A stretch of 49,050 bases of DNA, taken from the NCBI GenBank assembly GCA_009843785.1, contig VYCT01000027.1, positions 1-49,050 of the forward strand, read 5' to 3'. The translations under genes and the position numbers were made by a program. The first letter of the stretch is position 1. Each line of letters begins with the position of its first letter. The notes beneath the pieces were generated by a model. That model saw only the letters and a list, made by a program, of their open reading frames with translations, was not told where the DNA came from and did not search any database. This DNA is from Candidatus Poribacteria bacterium (lineage in GTDB: Bacteria > Poribacteria > WGA-4E > WGA-3G). Shown here piece by piece: positions 1 through 39,046 of this stretch.

Positions 1-18
1 GAATTAACACAATTGTTC

Positions 19-46
19 TTGCGTTATTTTTTTCAAGTGTTATACT
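19..46 (+). promoter_or_regulatory. Candidate sigma-70 promoter for the glycosidase gene
   Basis: A TTGCGT box (19-24) and a TATACT box (41-46) are separated by 16 bases, about 40 bases before the glycosidase start. A second TATACT lies at 52-57 without a good -35. Prediction from box matches only. Confidence 0.4.
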
Positions 47-22970: not shown

Positions 22971-25286
22971 ATGAAAAACACAATACAGAAATTTCTCGCT
23001 TGTCTGCTGTTTCTCAATATAGCGTGGGCAGTAAGTGCCGATGAAGCTGCACTCAAAAATCCAGACGGTTCATGGAAGTGGACGAATCGGCTTGTCCATG
23101 AAACGAGTCCGTATCTGCTTCTGCATGCACATAATCCGGTAGATTGGTACCCGTGGAATGATGAAGCATTAGCACTCGCGAAGAAGGAGCACAAACTCAT
23201 CTTTCTCTCGGTTGGTTATTCCACGTGCTATTGGTGCCACGTGATGGAGCGGGAGGTATTCTCTAATCCTGAAATCGCTGAAATGATGAATGAGAACTTT
23301 ATTAATATCAAGATTGATAGAGAAGAACGTCCAGACCTTGACGAAATCTATATGACAGCGACGCAGCTGCTGGTTCAACGCGGTGGCTGGCCTAACTCCG
23401 TCTTCCTTACTCCGGATTTAAAGCCGTTTTACGCTGGCACTTATTTCCCACCTGCAGATACGCCGGGCAGACCGGGGTTCCCAACGATTCTTGATGCAGT
23501 ACATGAAGCGTGGGTAACGCGGGAGGCAGAGGTCATTGAATCCGCAAACCAAATCTCAAATACCATTGAGATGGCAACGAGCCGAGGGTTCACTGCGCTC
23601 AACGCAAGAGCAGTGGATAGATCCCTTACGACTTCAGCGTTAGATTACCTCCGAACTGCCTATAGCCACGCCTATGGTGGCTTTGGTACTGCTCCGAAAT
23701 TCCCAAGTCCTGCGAATCTCGAATTCCTATTGAGTGAATATCAGAGAGAATCGGGGTTACAAACCCCTCGCGCAAAAGATGAATCGTTATTGAAGATGAT
23801 AACGCACACATTGGATATGATGGCTTATGGTGGCATGTATGACCAGATTGGCGGCGGATTCCATCGATATTCTGTTGACGCAAAATGGCTCATTCCACAC
23901 TTTGAGAAGATGCTTTACGACAACGCGCAACTTGCGAAAGTATATCTTCGTGCCTATCAATTGACGCAAGAGCCGCGTTACCGACGCGTTGCTGAAGAGG
24001 TCTTCAGTTACATTTTCCGAGAAATGACTGCCCCGGAAGGAGGCTTCTATTCGGCGTTGGATGCTGAAACGGATGCCGAAGAAGGGAAATATTACGTCTG
24101 GACTGCCGATGAGATCCAGAAGATTCTCGGAAACCCAAAAGACACTTCACGCTTCAACGAAATTTATGGCGTGGATAAGGGACCCAATTTTGAAGGTAAG
24201 AGCGTTCTTTATGTGCCCGATGGATCAGAAGTAGAGGGCTCTGTGAAAGGTTTGTCGACAGCACGCGAAAAACTTTTAACAGCACGTTTTGAACGCGAAT
24301 ATCCGTTATTAGACACAAAAATTATTGTGAACTGGAACGGTTTGATGATAGATGCACTCGCCTACGGTTACCAAGTGCTTGGTGAGGAACGTTATCTTAC
24401 CGCAGCATCGAAAGCTGCTCGGTTTATCCTTGAGACCTTGAGAAAACCAGGCGGTGAATTGTGGCATACGTATACGGCTGGTGTTGTCAAACAAGATGCG
24501 TATCTTGATGACTATGCCTTTTTTGTCCGTGGTCTGCTCGGATTGCATGCGGCTACGGGCGAAAATCAGTGGTTGGATTCAGCACGAACACTTACCGATA
24601 AGATGATTCAATTTTTCTGGGACGATAAAAGCGGCGGATTTTATTATACGAAAGCGGATGCGAAACATCTCATTGTGCGTACCAAGAAACCTTATGACTC
24701 CGCGATTCCGTCTGGTAACGCTGTCGCTGTTAGAAACCTATTGGCATTTGGGACAGATTATCGGCACTATGCTGAGAAGACGTTGCGCATCTTTGCTGAA
24801 TCCATGGCACAAAGCCCATCATCCTTCATGTATATGCACTTTGCCCTTAACGACTACCTAACCTCGGAAGAGGATGAAGATTCCTCTGAATCATCAATAG
24901 TAACCGCAACGGCTAAAGTTAAAGAGAAAGCCGATGCAGTTTTTAACGTGGAGCTTCAGCTTAAAATCGCTGCAGGTTGGCACATTAACGCCAATCCTGC
25001 AGGACAAGATAACCTGATCCCGACGACTGTTTCTGTGGATGCAAATGCGCCGGTAGAGATTGTTGATATCACGTATCCGAAAGGCAGAACCACGCGTTTT
25101 GAGTTTAGCGACCAACCTTTGAACATCTATGAAGAAAGCCTTATGATCTCGCTGCGTTTAAAACAGAAACCGAATGTGACAGAAAAGAAAAACGTCCCAA
25201 TCACACTCAAACTCACCTATCAACCGTGTAATGACACCGAGTGTTTGTTACCGCAGACATTGGATGTTCTCTTAGAATTGCCATAG
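22971..25286 (+). CDS. Exported YyaL/DUF255 thioredoxin-like protein fused to a DsbD-N-like domain
   Basis: The protein has 771 residues. The signal peptide ends near AVSADE. A DUF255 thioredoxin-like domain (about 35-200) has STCYWCHVM with the CxxC at 86-89, followed by an (alpha/alpha)6-barrel region typical of YyaL/SPATA20 ([42 protein letters not shown]). The final 130 residues resemble the N-terminal domain of Dsb[14 protein letters not shown], and Cys753/Cys758 in [12 protein letters not shown]. The two domains suggest periplasmic thiol-disulfide chemistry. The stretch from about residue 260 (ESGLQTP and following residues) looks like extra sequence against family memory and contains the palindromic element shared with troA. 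Confidence 0.75.
23747..23767 (+). repeat. Intragenic palindromic element, copy 2 (in the YyaL-like gene)
   Basis: Identical over 21 bp to 19967-19987 and read in the same frame as E-S-G-L-Q-T-P. The palindrome is at 23753-23767. It lies in a loop where YyaL proteins usually run straight into the following helix. Confidence 0.65.
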
Positions 25287-30780: not shown

Positions 30781-32019
30781 ATGACATCATTTAAATCTGT
30801 TTTCATTTCAGTATTTCTTGGGGCAGCCCTGATTACGGTTGTGCTAATCCTCAATGCGAGACGTCCGGCAATGGAAGTAGATCAGCCGAGTGCTGATTTT
30901 GTGCGGGCGACGGGGAAGTGCGCGGAGTGCCATCGGCGGGAAACGTCTGCGGTTGTCCATCAATATGAACGGAGCGAGCATGCCAAGCACGGCGTGAGTT
31001 GCTTGGATTGCCATAAAGCTGTGGAAAATCAGGAAACACAAGCACACCGGAGTTTTACAATCGCGAAGCATCTCACGGCAAAAAATTGTAGCCAGTGCCA
31101 TACCACCGAGTATACACAGTTTCTCCGAAGCCGACATGCGGCACCGGCTTGGGCAGCGGTATGGGGTGCGAAGGACTTTACAGCGGAACAGATCGCCTTC
31201 GCTGAAAAATATCACAAGGGTGCGGTGGAGCGTCCAGCAAATCCTTTAGCGATGGCAGAGGGTAAAAGTGCTATTAACGTAGGGTGCTTGGGTTGCCACG
31301 ATATAGGTAAGCCGAATTCGGATGGTTCTATCGGGACGTGCACAGCCTGCCATGCGCGGCATTCCAGTTCGGTTGCGCTGGCGCGAGAACCGGAAACTTG
31401 TGGACAGTGCCACATGGGACCCGACCATTCACAGATTGAAATCTACCATGAATCCAAACACGGTGTGCTTTACAATGCACAAAAATCGGAGATGAATCTC
31501 AAAGCACCGCCGAAAACACTCACGACAGCAGATATGACAGTGCCGACCTGTGTGACGTGCCATTTGAGCGGCTTGGATGGCTTGAATGTGACGCACGATA
31601 CGACCGAACGACTCTCGTATTGGCTGTTTGCCGCGGTCTCTGAGAAGCGTCCGACCTATCAACAAGGTCAAGACGCGATGAAAGAGACGTGCTTAAAATG
31701 CCACGCGAGTTCACAAGTAGAAATTTACTATCAGGAGGCTGAAGGTGTTGTCGCGGATACTAACCGTAAAATTTCGGAAGCAGTGGTACTGATGAAGTCG
31801 CTTCGTGAAGACGGTTTGCTGACGGAAACACCTTTTGATGAACCTATCGAATTTCTTTACTTTGATCTGTGGCACTATTACGGTCGGACAGCAAAACATG
31901 GCGCGTTCATGGGCGGTGCGGATTTTGTCCAGTGGCACGGAAATTATGAGCTTTTGTTGAAGATGACGGAGTTGAAAAGAATTGCCGAAGAACTCAGAGA
32001 AAACGCTGCGAAACCGTAA
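30781..32019 (+). CDS. Octaheme c-type cytochrome, hydroxylamine oxidoreductase (HAO) family
   Basis: The protein has 412 residues. An N-terminal membrane anchor (about 5-25) is followed by eight CxxCH haem-binding motifs, with first Cys at residues 47, 74, 103, 169, 187, 207, 257 and 304. The C-terminal segment FDLWHYYGRTAKHGAFMGGA and QWHGNYELL is typical of the HAO family. HAO-type enzymes oxidise hydroxylamine or hydrazine; relatives without the P460 cross-linking Tyr reduce nitrite or hydroxylamine. Whether that Tyr is present needs an alignment: a Phe stands in GADFVQWHG. A membrane anchor suggests electron exchange with a quinone pool. The gene overlaps the next one by 38 bases. Confidence 0.82.
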   Translation: MTSFKSVFISVFLGAALITVVLILNARRPAMEVDQPSADFVRATGKCAECHRRETSAVVHQYERSEHAKHGVSCLDCHKAVENQETQAHRSFTIAKHLTAKNCSQCHTTEYTQFLRSRHAAPAWAAVWGAKDFTAEQIAFAEKYHKGAVERPANPLAMAEGKSAINVGCLGCHDIGKPNSDGSIGTCTACHARHSSSVALAREPETCGQCHMGPDHSQIEIYHESKHGVLYNAQKSEMNLKAPPKTLTTADMTVPTCVTCHLSGLDGLNVTHDTTERLSYWLFAAVSEKRPTYQQGQDAMKETCLKCHASSQVEIYYQEAEGVVADTNRKISEAVVLMKSLREDGLLTETPFDEPIEFLYFDLWHYYGRTAKHGAFMGGADFVQWHGNYELLLKMTELKRIAEELRENAAKP

Positions 32020-32794
32020 CGGATTGGCTGCCAGACTGCTCGACTTTTTTATCATTGCGAACCTTGCGTTTTTGGCACTTGATGTGTTTTTAGCGCACTC
32101 CGTCAACGCGTTTGCACATCCCGCGGAATGGATTCCCTTCTACTTCTCGTTAGGTGCGTCCGTCCTGCTCGCGCTCATACTTTTTGGAAAAAAAAGGCGG
32201 TGGAGAGCGTGGTGTCGGCTTGGTATTGGGTGGGGTGCTATCTGTATCGGCATCTCTGGTATGTTTTTTCACCTCGGTAGCGAATTCTTCTCTGATTTGA
32301 CGCTCAAGAATCTTGTCTACACAGCTCCGTTTGTAGCACCGCTGGCTTTTACAGGCGTAGGGCTGCTTTTAATCATGAACGGTATGATCCACGATACGGA
32401 TTTAGAATGGGCACAATGGGTCGTGTTTATGGCGGGCTTCGGGTGGTGCGGTAATTTTATTCTCTCGGTTTTCGACCACGCGCAAAACGGGTTTTTCAAC
32501 CCATCTGAATGGTTACCAGTGTTTACGAGTGCTATCGCTGTCGGATGTCTGGCAACGCTATTTTTTGTGCCTCACCAACCCACTTTCCTTAGGTTCTGTA
32601 CCGTTGTTTTAGGAATCAACTTCATCGTTGGTATCGCCGGGTTCTTCTTCCATTTGGCGGTAGATCTGCAAGCACCAGGTGTTACGCAGATAGATAAATT
32701 CCTCTATGGCGCGCCTCTGTTCGCGCCGCTTCTCTTTCCAAATCTATCACTTCTCGCGCTCTTAGGTATCTGGAAAATGTCTGTCAGAAACTGA
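31982..32794 (+). CDS. Internally duplicated integral membrane protein with conserved His
   Basis: The protein has 270 residues with about eight hydrophobic segments, and I recognise no named family. The two halves are copies of each other: AFAHPAEWIPFYFSLGAS matches FFNPSEWLPVFTSAIA, and GISGMFFHLGSEF matches GIAGFFFHLAVDL. Both continue into a (Y/L)xxPF/LFAPL stretch before the last helix. His is conserved in FFHL in both halves and in AHPAEW. This suggests a two-fold pseudosymmetric membrane protein that could hold haem b, quinone or a metal. The start is taken as TTG 31982, with GGAG 10 bases upstream, inside the cytochrome gene; a later TTG near 32026 is possible. The overlap points to a partner of the octaheme cytochrome. 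Confidence 0.6.
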   Translation: MPKNSEKTLRNRNGLAARLLDFFIIANLAFLALDVFLAHSVNAFAHPAEWIPFYFSLGASVLLALILFGKKRRWRAWCRLGIGWGAICIGISGMFFHLGSEFFSDLTLKNLVYTAPFVAPLAFTGVGLLLIMNGMIHDTDLEWAQWVVFMAGFGWCGNFILSVFDHAQNGFFNPSEWLPVFTSAIAVGCLATLFFVPHQPTFLRFCTVVLGINFIVGIAGFFFHLAVDLQAPGVTQIDKFLYGAPLFAPLLFPNLSLLALLGIWKMSVRN

Positions 32795-34162: not shown

Positions 34163-36460
34163 TTACGGATCAATTTCCGTACCAAGGCGAAAATTCGGAA
34201 CTCGTTTACGATATCTATCAATCGGTGTCATATCCTGGACCGGATTTCCCTTGATACGTAGCAGATGTAGATTCTTAAAGTTTTCAATAACGCTGATGTC
34301 TTGGATTTCATTTTCTTGTAGATGTAAGTATTCCAGTTTTGTCAATGCCTGAAGCGGTGTGATGTCCGTAATTTGATTATTGTTAAGCCTTAAAACCCTA
34401 AGTTGTTCCAATTCCGAAATCGGTGTGATATCTTGAATCCCCATATTAGACAGGGATAGGTCTGTGAGTCGTCTCATTTTCGCGAGTGGTCGCACAAGAG
34501 GGGTAAGGTCGCTGATTTGATTGCCTCCAAGACTTAAGCTTGTCAGTCTATTCAAATTTGTGAGAGGTGTGAAATCACGGATTTGATTCTCGCTAAGCAT
34601 TAGATTTGTCAATTTTGTCAGTTCCGAAATCGGTGTGATGTCCGTGATTTCATTACCATGAAGCCATAAGGAGTCAAGATGCTTTAAGCCGGCGAGTGGC
34701 GTGATGTCTGTAATTTTATTTTGTCGGAGGAGTAAGTGGCTGAGCTGCGTTAACTCGGCAAGGGGTGTAATATCACTAATTTGATTGCGATCAAGTGATA
34801 GCAAGGTTAGTTGTGTTAGTCCAGCGAGTGATGTAATGTCGCTGATTTGAGTATTTTTAATTCTTAATTGCCTAAGCTGTGTCAATCTTGCGAGAGGCTT
34901 GATATCTTGAATTTGGGGCCCTTCAAAGACCAATTCTGTCAGCTGCGTGAGTCCAGCGAGGGGTGTTATATCGTTGATCTGATTATCACTGCTGCCAAAA
35001 CCGTGAAAATCGGTGAGATGTAACGATGTCAGTTGTGTTAACCCAGCAAGAGGTGTTATATCGTTGATCTGATTGCGGTCGATGGATAGACTTCTCAGTT
35101 CTTTAAGTCCAGTGAGGGGAGTAACGTCTCGAATTTGATTTTCTCCAAGGGATACATAACCGAGTTGTGTCAATTTAACAAGGGGAGTAATGTCTGTTAT
35201 GTTGTTCCGGGATAGGCCTAATCCGTTAAGTTCCCTTAACGCAGCAAGAGAGGTAATGTCTGTTATGTCGTTATAGTCTAGGCTTAAGCTGTAAAGTTTC
35301 GTTAACGCAGCAAGGGGCGTGATGTCTGCAATTTGATTATTCCCGAGATTTAACCGCTTGAGTTGTGTTAATTTTGCGAGAGGCGTGATGTCTGCAATTT
35401 GATTATCCCTAAGTTCTAAAGTCGTTAGGTTAGTCATTTTTTCTATACCTTTTAAGTTTTTGATACCTTTACCTATGGCGGACAGAGATTTTAATTATTT
35501 TAAATTTGCTTCAAGGATAAGATCACTTCGAGCCAACCGGAATATCTCTCGAACTGCTGCATCCAAATTCGGATCGGGTATTGTTATATTCAGTGATATG
35601 ATGTCTGTAATTTGATTATTACCAAGTGATATAGTTTTTAGTCTGTCTAGCTTTGATAACGGTGCGATGTAACGAATTTTGTTTCCGTACAGTTTCAGTT
35701 TCACAAGTTGTGTCAATCTGGAAAGTGGCACGATATCGCTAATTTCGTTTCCGCTAAGTTCTAACTCGATAAGTCGTGTCAAGCCTGAGAGGGGCACGAT
35801 ATCGCTAATTTCGTTTCCGCTAAGTTCTAACTCGGTAAGTTGTATCAAACCAGATAAAGGTGTGATGTCAATAATCAGGTTATTGTTAAGCGATAGGATT
35901 TTAAGTTTGTTTAACCTCGCGAGTGGTGTAGTATAACGAATTTCGTTTCCATTAAGCTTTAGTTTTATAAGTTGTGTCAAACTGGAGAGTGGCTCAATAT
36001 CGCTAATTTCGTTTCCGCTAAGTTCTAACTCGGTAAGTTGTATCAAGCCTGAGAGTGGTGTAACGTCGGTAATTTGGTTATAATTGAGGAATAGTCCTCT
36101 TAATTGCTTTAATCCAGAAAGTGGTGTAATATCTCGGACCTGATTACTATTAAGTCGTAGTAAATTGAGCTGCTCTAATTCCATCAGTGGCGTTATGTCT
36201 GCAATTTGATTATACTGAAGGACTAATGTCTTTAGTTTTGTTGCTTTCTCTAAACCCGCTAACTTTTTGATTCCTCTCGATTCAGCAGTTAGGAACTCCA
36301 ATTTTTTCAAATCTCTTTCCATGATAGGCGCGTTTGGGTCTAAACCTAATGCCTCTCGCACGGCTGCGGCTAAGTTCGGATCAGGGACCTCTACTGGTTC
36401 CGGGGGTGAACAACTCAAGAAAACAGTGAAAACCATAAAAAGCAGGCAAATATGTTTCAT
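34163..36460 (-). pseudogene. LRR lipoprotein gene interrupted by an in-frame TAA; two LRR proteins fused
   Basis: The reading frame from ATG 36460 is open for 321 codons, meets TAA at 35495-35497, and continues in the same frame for another 443 codons to 34163. The first part has a lipoprotein-like signal (VFLSC), an N-terminal cap (VPDPNLAAAVREALGLDPN) and 22-residue LRRs. A second cap follows (IPDPNLDAAVREIFRL), then the stop, then more LRRs and the usual C-cap (NLHLLRIKGNPVQDM, PIDRYRKRVPNF). In the paralogue at 40674-42152 the stop position is GAA (Glu), so one base change explains it. Either a pseudogene, or the downstream part is expressed from Met 35437 without a signal. Confidence 0.7.
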
Positions 36461-36487
36461 AACGCTATATCCCTTTTAATGTCCCGT

Positions 36488-39046
36488 TTATGGATCAATT
36501 TGAATATCAACGTGCAAATTCGGAATCTGTTGACGCAACCTCTGTATCGGTGCCATATCCTGAATGGGGTTATCCATGATGCGTAGATAGCTTAGATTCT
36601 TAAAGTTTTCAACAACACTGATGTCTTGGATCTGATTCTGTTCAAGTGCTAAGCTTGCAAGCTGCGTCAATTTAGTGAGAGGTATAATATCATTAATATG
36701 ATTACTTCCGAGTTCCAAATCGGCGAGTCGCTTCAATCCAGTAAGCGGTGTGATGTCCGTAATCTGATTGCCTTCGAGCAATAATAGCCTTATTTGCGTC
36801 AGATTCGCGAGCGGTCTGATGTTTTGAATATTATTATTGTTAAGCCCTAAGGCCGTAAGTTGTATCAAGTTCGCGAGCGGTGTAACATCAAAGATCTCAT
36901 TATTGCCGAGCCATAAGCTTGTCAGTTGTTTAAACTCAGAGAGTGGTGTAATATCTCTAATTTTGTTCCTGCCGCCTTCAAGTGCTAAATGCATAAGGCG
37001 AGGCAATCCACGGAGTAACATAGCGAGAGATGTTAGGTCCTGAATGTGATTGTCTCCAAGCCCTAAATACCAGAGTTTTGTCAGTTCAGTGAGAGGTTTG
37101 AAATTGTTGATTTCGTTATCATCAATCCGCAACCATGTCAGCCTTGTCAGATTTCTAAGTGGCATAATGTCTTCGATCTGATTACTGCTAAGACTCAAAT
37201 CTGTTAGTTTATTCAATTCGGCAATTGGTGCGATATCGCTGACCTTATTATCACCAAGCCATAAGATCTCAAGTTGTTTTAATCCTGCCAGAGGTGTAAC
37301 ATCTGTAATTTTATTTTTACGGAGGTATAAGTGGCTGATATGCGTTAACCCTGCGAGCGGTGTAATGTCCGCGATTTCATTCCGGTCAAGAGCTAGCCAG
37401 GTTAACTGCTTTAATCCAGCGAGAGGTTTTATGTCGTTGATTTGACTATTCACAAGTTTTAATTGCCTAAGCTGTGTAAGTTTAGTGAGAAAAGATAGGT
37501 CGTTGATTTGACTATTCGCGAGGGATAATTCCGTGAGTTGCGTTAATCCAGCAAGGGGTGTAATATCCTTGATTGGGTTATCACTACCGCCAGAATCGTA
37601 AGAACTGAGATGTAACCATGTCAGCTGTGTTAACTCAGCGAGCGGTGTGATGTCTGTAATTTGATTCTGCCCAAGTCGTAGGGTTCTTAATTGTTTTAAT
37701 CCTGTAAAGGGGGTGATGTCGCCGATTTGGTTGTTCTCAAGCGATATGTGTCCTATCTGTGTTAATGTAGCGAGGGGTGCAATGTCCTTTATGTGGTTCC
37801 GTGAAAGGTCTAATATGTTAAGTTCTGTCAACTCAGCGATGGGTGTAATGTCACGGATTTGATTATCCCAGAGCTGTAAAGTTAGCAACTGCTTTAATTT
37901 TCCGAGTGGCGTGATGTCCCTAATTTGATTAGACCGCAGATTTAACTCCTTGAGTTGCATTAATCCTGCAAGTGGTGTAACATCAGTAATTTGATTTCCA
38001 TAAAGTTCTAAGTGCGTAAGTTTAGTCAAACCTGCAAGCAATGAAAGGAGGGGCGGCAGACCTTGTATCTTATTGTTGCCAAGCGATAAATGCGTGAGTT
38101 GTGTTAACCCTTCAAGCGATATAATATCGCTGATTTGATTGTCTCCAACATCTAATTCTGTGAGTTGTGTCAATTCTGCTAAAGGCGTGATGTCGTCGAT
38201 TTGATTTCCATTTAGATTTAATTTCGTCAGGTGTGTCAAATTTGTGAGTGATGTAATATTGTTGATTTGATTTCCTCTTAGATTTAATTCGGTCAGCGGC
38301 ATCAATTCACTGAGCGGTTTAATATTGATGATTTCATTATGAGAGAGCATTAATGTTTCAAGTTGTTTTAATCCAGTCAATGGGGCAATATCGGCAATTT
38401 CATTAATATAGAGATTTAATTTCGTCAGATGTGTCAATCCTGTGAGCGGCGTAATATCACTGATTTCATTACTATGAAGTTCTAATTCTGTGAGTTGTGT
38501 CAATTCCGCGAGCGGCGTAACATCACTGATTTCATTACTATGAAGTTCTAACCTTGTCAGGTGTGTCAAACCTATGAGAGGGGTAAGGTGTTTGATTTGG
38601 TTTTCATTAAGCGTTAGTCCTCTAAGTTCTGACAACCCTGATAGTGAGGAGAGATCACTGATTTTATTACCATTAAGGTCTAAGTATCTGAGTTGTGTTA
38701 ATTCGGAAAGGGGTGTGATATCCTCAATTTGATTATAGCGTAGACTTAAGGACGTAAGATTTGTGAGTCCAGCGAGAGGCGTGACATCTGCAATTTGAGC
38801 GTTACCAAGCGATAAACTTGTTAAACTCGTCATTTTTTCTATACCCGTTAAGTCTGTTATGCCTTTGTCGAATGTTGACAATCTCACTAACTTTTCCAAC
38901 TCCTTTTGAGGAATTGGTGCGTTTGGACCTAAGTGGAGAGCTTCACGAATCGCGTCGGCTAAATACGGATCGGGGATATCTACGGGTTCTGACGCACAAC
39001 TGATGAAAACGGTGAAAAAGGTAAGAAGCACGCAAATATGTTTCAT
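36488..39046 (-). CDS. Leucine-rich-repeat lipoprotein, intact paralogue
   Basis: The protein has 852 residues. Its N-terminus (MKHICVLLTFFTVFISCASE) is a probable lipoprotein signal with Cys17. A cap (IPDPYLADAIREALHLGPN) is followed by about 35 tandem LRRs of about 22 residues, consensus NQIxDITPLAxLTQLxxLxL as in internalin-type and SDS22-like LRRs. The C-cap is NFKNLSYLRIMDNPIQDMAP. The product should be a long curved surface scaffold for binding proteins or glycans. It is the longest and only clearly unbroken large copy of the four. It starts 26 bases after the preceding broken copy. Confidence 0.8.
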   Translation of the reverse strand: MKHICVLLTFFTVFISCASEPVDIPDPYLADAIREALHLGPNAPIPQKELEKLVRLSTFDKGITDLTGIEKMTSLTSLSLGNAQIADVTPLAGLTNLTSLSLRYNQIEDITPLSELTQLRYLDLNGNKISDLSSLSGLSELRGLTLNENQIKHLTPLIGLTHLTRLELHSNEISDVTPLAELTQLTELELHSNEISDITPLTGLTHLTKLNLYINEIADIAPLTGLKQLETLMLSHNEIINIKPLSELMPLTELNLRGNQINNITSLTNLTHLTKLNLNGNQIDDITPLAELTQLTELDVGDNQISDIISLEGLTQLTHLSLGNNKIQGLPPLLSLLAGLTKLTHLELYGNQITDVTPLAGLMQLKELNLRSNQIRDITPLGKLKQLLTLQLWDNQIRDITPIAELTELNILDLSRNHIKDIAPLATLTQIGHISLENNQIGDITPFTGLKQLRTLRLGQNQITDITPLAELTQLTWLHLSSYDSGGSDNPIKDITPLAGLTQLTELSLANSQINDLSFLTKLTQLRQLKLVNSQINDIKPLAGLKQLTWLALDRNEIADITPLAGLTHISHLYLRKNKITDVTPLAGLKQLEILWLGDNKVSDIAPIAELNKLTDLSLSSNQIEDIMPLRNLTRLTWLRIDDNEINNFKPLTELTKLWYLGLGDNHIQDLTSLAMLLRGLPRLMHLALEGGRNKIRDITPLSEFKQLTSLWLGNNEIFDVTPLANLIQLTALGLNNNNIQNIRPLANLTQIRLLLLEGNQITDITPLTGLKRLADLELGSNHINDIIPLTKLTQLASLALEQNQIQDISVVENFKNLSYLRIMDNPIQDMAPIQRLRQQIPNLHVDIQIDP

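Follow-up and report, generated by a model that had tools for sequence, protein, structure and literature searches.

The window analysed here, a stretch of 49,050 nucleotides from a Candidatus Poribacteria bacterium (assembly GCA_009843785.1, contig VYCT01000027.1), carries a gene for an octaheme c-type cytochrome of the HAO family that overlaps by 38 bases the gene of an eight-helix membrane protein, and the two proteins probably form a respiratory complex in which electrons pass from the membrane quinones to a nitrogen-oxide-reducing enzyme. The eight-helix protein belongs to an unnamed family, for which no description was found in the literature, and the evidence that it is a dedicated partner of the octaheme is strong. 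Such a membrane partner had been proposed in a preliminary description of the region, and the proposal is borne out by the strict pairing of the genes, by invariant histidines and by the quinol-oxidising partners of other octahemes. Hao-like octahemes recur in genomes without any known nitrite reductase, usually with no known source of electrons; here, one defined octaheme clade, spread over about ten phyla from sponge symbionts, marine sediments and soils, is tied to one specific membrane protein without a database name. This protein can serve as a marker separating the clade from other 'hao' matches, and the pair offers a testable route from quinol to nitrogen oxides and possibly a new family of quinol-oxidising proteins.

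Table 1. Features of the two-gene unit, with positions in the window and, where indicated, residues of the encoded proteins.
Feature	Position	Strand	Basis or remark
Octaheme c-type cytochrome, HAO family	30781..32019	+	412 aa; eight CxxCH, PF13447, PDB relatives IhOCC/HAO/HDH
Membrane protein of unnamed family	31982..32794	+	270 aa from a TTG start; eight helices forming two homologous halves
GGAG, possible ribosome-binding site of the membrane gene	31968..31971	+	sequence
N-terminal membrane anchor of the octaheme	residues ~7-25		one hydrophobic helix
Haem motif 1, C47-H51	30919..30933	+	sequence; invariant in octaheme alignment A2
Haem motif 2, C74-H78	31000..31014	+	sequence, homologue alignment
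Haem motif 3, C103-H107	31087..31101	+	sequence, homologue alignment
Haem motif 4, C169-H173	31285..31299	+	aligned with catalytic haem 4 (P460) C229-H233 of Nitrosomonas HAO
Haem motif 5, C187-H191	31339..31353	+	sequence, homologue alignment
Haem motif 6, C207-H211	31399..31413	+	sequence, homologue alignment
Asp215-His216	31423..31428	+	aligned with NeHAO active-site D267-H268; invariant
Haem motif 7, C257-H261	31549..31563	+	sequence, homologue alignment
Haem motif 8, C304-H308	31690..31704	+	sequence, homologue alignment
Gln384	31930..31932	+	at the position of NeHAO cross-link Tyr467; Gln in 92/92 homologues
First four-helix half	32024..32386	+	residues 15-135; predicted model, hhalign
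Invariant His39, end of helix 1	32096..32098	+	92/92
Invariant His97, end of helix 3, GxxGxxxH	32270..32272	+	92/92
Second four-helix half	32402..32788	+	residues 141-269; predicted model, hhalign
Invariant His166, end of helix 5	32477..32479	+	91/91 complete
Invariant His224, end of helix 7, GxxGxxxH	32651..32653	+	91/91 complete

A gene pair conserved across phyla

As the preliminary description had stated, the membrane gene begins within the octaheme gene (Table 1), and most Poribacteria repeat the same TTG start and Shine-Dalgarno-like sequence at this gene. A scan of 84,980 species genomes with the membrane protein led to 80 kept loci (101 in all), whose hosts belong to about ten phyla (Poribacteria, Planctomycetota, Acidobacteriota, Gemmatimonadota, Zixibacteria, Neomarinimicrobiota, KSB1, Bacteroidota, Oligoflexales and others). 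In all 80 of these loci, an octaheme gene on the same strand immediately precedes the membrane gene, whose start falls between 56 bases before and 63 bases after the octaheme stop; the start codon falls within the cytochrome gene in 49 loci and within the 60 bases after it in 30. The neighbours that the preliminary description had suggested looking for were therefore present throughout, and the finding that it had named as contrary to a partnership, a membrane protein mostly without multihaem neighbours, was not obtained.

These loci were gathered through the membrane protein, and the reverse direction was checked on whole genomes of Poribacteria and Planctomycetota. Of 85 Poribacteria genomes, 34 contain a close octaheme, and exactly these 34 also contain the membrane protein, of which two fragments occur elsewhere. 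In the Planctomycetota (343 genomes), 11 genomes encode the membrane protein (E < 1e-50), and these are also the genomes with octahemes of at least 530 bits, all pairs being adjacent; the next octahemes reach at most 330 bits, and the Planctomycetota genomes containing these have no full-length membrane protein, except those of the 11 that carry a second octaheme. One Planctomycetota genome (G289) has just a 28-residue match to the membrane protein, at a contig edge. The pairwise distances of the two proteins correlate with r = 0.71 when one divergent pair is omitted (r = 0.91 with that pair, which dominates the value), the maximum of 5000 permutations being 0.26. The octaheme tree departs from a strict grouping by phylum, and the pair has probably moved between phyla by transfer. 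Comparison of the Poribacterium G069 with G054 indicates that the octaheme gene and most of the membrane gene were lost together: a deletion scar in G069 (contig C4, L060:7565-8736) has flanks in common with G054, and the membrane gene is reduced there to about 106 C-terminal codons. Another genome, G048, carries two copies of the module (C72 and C29; L055 and L050), the second membrane protein being approximately 64% identical to that of the window.

No third gene conserved around the pair was found when the neighbourhoods of homologous loci were compared, which suggests that the two genes suffice. An upstream ECF sigma gene and an ABC-2 transporter were considered as parts of the module and rejected, as the neighbours vary between genomes. 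Elsewhere in the window, three tandem leucine-rich-repeat proteins, apparently recent paralogues and two of them with lipoprotein-like signal sequences, are encoded at 34163-39046, and a DUF255/thioredoxin-fold protein with a C-terminal DsbD_N domain at 22971-25286. In G082 and G048, leucine-rich-repeat genes of this kind adjoin the module and genes similar to that of the DUF255/DsbD_N protein lie near it.

Haem sites and active site of the octaheme

The cytochrome matches Pfam PF13447 at 2e-32, and its best relatives in the PDB are IhOCC (4qo5), NeHAO (4fas/1fgj) and HDH (6hif), together with Kuenenia HAO-like proteins; in profile searches IhOCC is the top-scoring solved relative (E 5e-48). 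Exactly eight CxxCH motifs are present in the window protein and in every complete homologue fetched, and HMMER alignments to HAO and IhOCC place them in register with HAO. The architecture first read from the gene was confirmed: eight haem motifs, a membrane anchor at the N-terminus and a C-terminus of HAO type.

In hydroxylamine-oxidising enzymes, Tyr467 (NeHAO numbering) forms the cross-link to haem 4, and HAOs devoid of this residue are reductive (PMC12758564); Nautilia HaoA, which has no cross-link Tyr, has likewise been argued to be reductive (PMC3701875). In the octaheme studied here, the corresponding position, drawn via 6h5l and one local HAO relative, is occupied by Gln384, and no Tyr appears there even with the alignment shifted by up to two positions. 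In this respect the protein departs from the oxidative HAOs (P460 enzymes). The Gln at the Tyr467 position predicts a reductive enzyme, and the missing cross-link Tyr favours quinol oxidation coupled to nitrogen-oxide reduction over the opposite direction.

The same position is also without Tyr in IhOCC of Ignicoccus hospitalis, a protein of 521 residues, whereas the window protein has 412, is anchored in the membrane and has a defined gene partner. According to PMC12758564, the anammox HAOr (Ferousi 2021) is similar in having the HAO fold, no Tyr cross-link and a predicted nitrite reduction; the octaheme studied here differs from it by belonging to another clade and having a partner of its own, and the solved Kuenenia HAO-like proteins are distantly similar to it in sequence.

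Architecture and family of the membrane protein

Eight membrane helices, together with short ones, were predicted by AlphaFold2 for the membrane protein (44 homologues; mean pLDDT 89.6, pTM 0.88). Profile-profile comparison shows its halves to be homologous (hhalign probability 98.7%, E = 2e-16), in agreement with the duplication of four helices previously described, and the motifs FFHL and P-(A/S)-E-W-(I/L)-P are indeed present in each half. The paired histidines noted at the same time can be specified as four residues, His39, His97, His166 and His224, the first two at places equivalent to those of the last two; a lack of conservation would have spoken against their role, and all four are invariant in the 91 complete homologues. 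They are retained even in the most divergent pair (G119), where identity is 33% for the membrane protein and 45% for the octaheme. Asp34, Asp165, Tyr113, Gly90, Gly93 and Pro52 are as invariant as the four His. One nearly invariant Glu is found per half (E49 and E176); Glu49 is replaced once by Gln and once by Thr, the variants of the E49-W50 motif being Q, T and Y. Glycines precede the second His of each half at positions -7 and -4: Gly90 and Gly93 before His97, both invariant, and Gly217 and Gly220 before His224, the latter invariant and the former conserved in 88 of 91 sequences (Ala in 3). This spacing would fit a flat cofactor (macrocycle) packed beside each His.

The mean Lys/Arg sum over 44 sequences is approximately 8.5 for the N-terminus, loops 2-3, 4-5 and 6-7 and the C-terminus, loop 4-5 being weak as topology evidence as it is also acidic, and approximately 2.5 for loops 1-2, 3-4, 5-6 and 7-8. 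This positive-inside bias makes the two termini cytoplasmic and orients helices 1, 3, 5 and 7 with their outer ends, where the His are located, towards the periplasm.

The preliminary description had not recognised the family of this protein, and the searches led to the same outcome. Neither the protein itself nor any of 43 scanned relatives could be credibly assigned to a Pfam or NCBIfam family, PDB sequence and profile searches returned nothing significant, and Foldseek with two models gave no match below E = 0.001 and no resemblance to a known b-type cytochrome. The only recurring fold matches were 3d19 and 3dby, soluble, duplicated four-helix metalloproteins (E of at least 0.2, TM approximately 0.5). 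Matches of one or two of 44 members to Zip, DUF4181, rhomboid, ComEC or CrcB (E of at least 2e-4, unshared) were discarded, and ABC transporter and GPCR matches in Foldseek were set aside for their low TM-scores. Known membrane families were rejected in turn: cytochrome b of bc1/b6f (no PF00033/PF13631 match; hhalign 0.15% against a local cytochrome b set), NrfD/PsrC (PF03916, about nine or ten helices; no Pfam match, hhalign 0.3%), NapC/NrfH/cM552 (PF03264, four or five CxxCH and a single anchor, as against eight helices, no CxxCH and no PF03264 match) and CcmC/CcmF/CcsA (no Pfam match; the tryptophan-rich WWD motif was absent from the alignment by inspection). A tblastn search of the plasmid collection gave no match.

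Proposed electron route, other readings and host respiration

Taken together, these data led us to propose a two-subunit, membrane-bound quinol:nitrogen-oxide reductase, similar to a reverse HURM, with a quinol-facing subunit that represents a new membrane family and probably contains haem b; we consider the balance for and against this proposal to be even. The eight-helix protein would lie in the cytoplasmic membrane with both termini inside and its four His near the periplasmic face, where they would most likely bind one or two haems b, the four His being symmetric and invariant at this outer face. Genomic context and sequence suggest an exchange of electrons with the quinone pool: quinol would be oxidised on the periplasmic side by the membrane protein, the electrons would pass directly to the anchored octaheme docked above it, and at haem 4 a nitrogen oxide (nitrite, NO or hydroxylamine) would be reduced to hydroxylamine, NO or ammonium. 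As all four His lie on the same face, the module itself would move no charge across the membrane, like the quinol dehydrogenases of the NrfH/NapC type. In this scheme the pairing of the genes, the duplication, the conserved residues and the missing cross-link Tyr are observed, and haem b, quinol, direction and substrate are inferred. Several observations count against a quinol reductase, namely that no known b-type cytochrome fold and no cytochrome b or NrfD profile was matched, that the weak 3d19/3dby matches leave room for a non-haem metal, that the host has a canonical aerobic chain and that the E49-W50 motif is not fully invariant. Tentatively, and leaning slightly against it ourselves, we also put forward a broader claim, in which the membrane protein, with two adjacent haems b at its periplasmic face, would be the first of a new quinol dehydrogenase class that has no relationship to cytochrome b, NrfD, NapC, NrfH or the haem handlers, and would form with the octaheme a widespread, overlooked two-gene complex for nitrogen-oxide respiration in about ten phyla.

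Electrons could also flow the other way, the octaheme oxidising hydroxylamine or another reduced nitrogen species and the membrane protein reducing quinone as in a forward HURM. The Asp-His pair of the HAO active site is kept, and many hosts, that of the window included, are aerobic or microaerobic, but the replacement of the cross-link Tyr by Gln in 92/92 homologues makes this direction unlikely, and no ammonia monooxygenase or other source of hydroxylamine recurs in the neighbourhoods of the loci. The main structural rival bears on the cofactor: in each four-helix half, H/H with E or D could bind non-haem Fe or Cu, and the membrane protein would then be a redox enzyme or the point of electron entry. 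Such a site would agree with the presence in each half of a pair of invariant His and one nearly invariant Glu, with the invariant D34 and D165 and with the 3d19/3dby fold matches; the weakness of these matches, which are to soluble proteins, and the glycines at -4 and -7, better suited to a planar macrocycle, render it rather improbable.

Haem-handling proteins also hold haem by His at the periplasmic ends of helices, and the membrane protein could be a dedicated assembly factor of the octaheme, as CcsA1 is for MccA, instead of an electron-transfer subunit. The strict one-to-one pairing would fit this role as well, but the octaheme has canonical CxxCH at each of its eight haem sites, for which no special lyase is required, and neither a WWD motif nor a family match was found, so that a haem-handling role is less likely and in our view quite improbable. 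An eight-helix, internally duplicated architecture is common among transporters, and a protein without redox role that conducts or anchors the substrate or product (nitrite, NO or hydroxylamine) was therefore considered; this is very improbable, the strongest conservation residing in potential ligand residues clustered at one face and no transporter family being matched.

The proposed quinol:nitrogen-oxide reductase has precedents. In HURM and reverse HURM, the octaheme is partnered by cytochrome cM552/CycB, a member of the NapC/NrfH family, and HaoA with cM552 has been proposed as a quinol-oxidising nitrite reductase in Nautilia profundicola (PMC3701875). The present module resembles these systems by an HAO-family octaheme without cross-link Tyr and by a dedicated, putatively quinone-facing membrane partner, but this partner has eight helices and no CxxCH and the genes are neighbouring and often overlapping. 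The suggestion of an undescribed module stands for the membrane protein, whereas the coupling of an HAO-type enzyme to the quinone pool was already known as a concept. A search of the freely accessible literature gave no description of the membrane partner, and an earlier one is possible. Octahemes of Phycisphaerae, Poriferisphaera included, have been reported as Hao-like or putative Onr, and the partner is not mentioned in the passages of these reports retrieved by keyword (PMC11266412, PMC10732223); these octahemes probably belong to the present clade in part, the loci L098 (ZRK32), L103 (OFTM112) and L110 (UBA1845) being from the groups concerned. The genome of Poriferisphaera ZRK32, a strain in culture that responds to nitrate (PMC10945688), carries the pair (L098, L150). 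Since at least two hosts, ZRK32 and Aquisphaera insulae JC669, are named strains and not MAGs, the proposal is directly testable.

In the wider family, octahemes adjoin other quinol-oxidising proteins, either Rieske/cytochrome b or NrfD. The octaheme gene lies beside cytochrome b in three Poribacteria genomes (G007, G008 and G011, with Rieske confirmed by Pfam in G008), and several octahemes of Planctomycetota adjoin cytochrome b or NrfD. As the neighbours of octahemes are habitually quinol-oxidising, the eight-helix protein would fill the same slot in the present clade. In Kuenenia, Kuste4569-4574 combine an octaheme with a Rieske/cytochrome b complex (PMC12954380). The module shares with this complex and with the three Poribacteria genomes the genetic coupling of an octaheme to a membrane protein, and by analogy may also oxidise quinol, but a single unrelated eight-helix protein replaces cytochrome b and Rieske.

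The octaheme of the deep-branching Poribacteria is longer (approximately 500 aa) and forms one operon with cytochrome b (L042:6341-9397, L043:4762-7361 and L041:1251-3867; Rieske confirmed in the L042 operon), so that the octaheme seems to substitute for cytochrome c1 or f. In six Planctomycetota loci (L178, L179, L180, L186, L188 and L189), the octaheme directly follows an NrfD-type gene; a Pfam-confirmed molybdopterin oxidoreductase comes next in L178, and L179, L180 and L188 have similar genes as neighbours, an arrangement in which these octahemes might pass electrons from quinol on to a nitrate reductase. A fusion protein of 853 aa with nine CxxCH, in which an HAO-like octaheme is followed by a C-terminal region of thioredoxin-like appearance (G002, L044:3940-6501), adjoins a ferric-reductase-like membrane protein and other cytochromes.

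A search of the window genome gave no NapC/NrfH, and no Poribacteria genome reaches the curated cut-off for NirK, so that the module could handle nitrite or NO in these symbionts. The host genome has a canonical aerobic chain, with Rieske/cytochrome b sets and a haem-copper oxidase; the module would then act as an accessory branch, in keeping with its patchy distribution. Its co-occurrence with NirK or with terminal oxidases in Poribacteria is uninformative, the former being absent and the latter nearly universal. Nearly every Poribacteria genome also encodes a molybdopterin oxidoreductase (PF00384) of approximately 900 aa with one in-frame TGA (for example G000:C132:5848-7116, in the window genome), which is probably a selenocysteine formate dehydrogenase.
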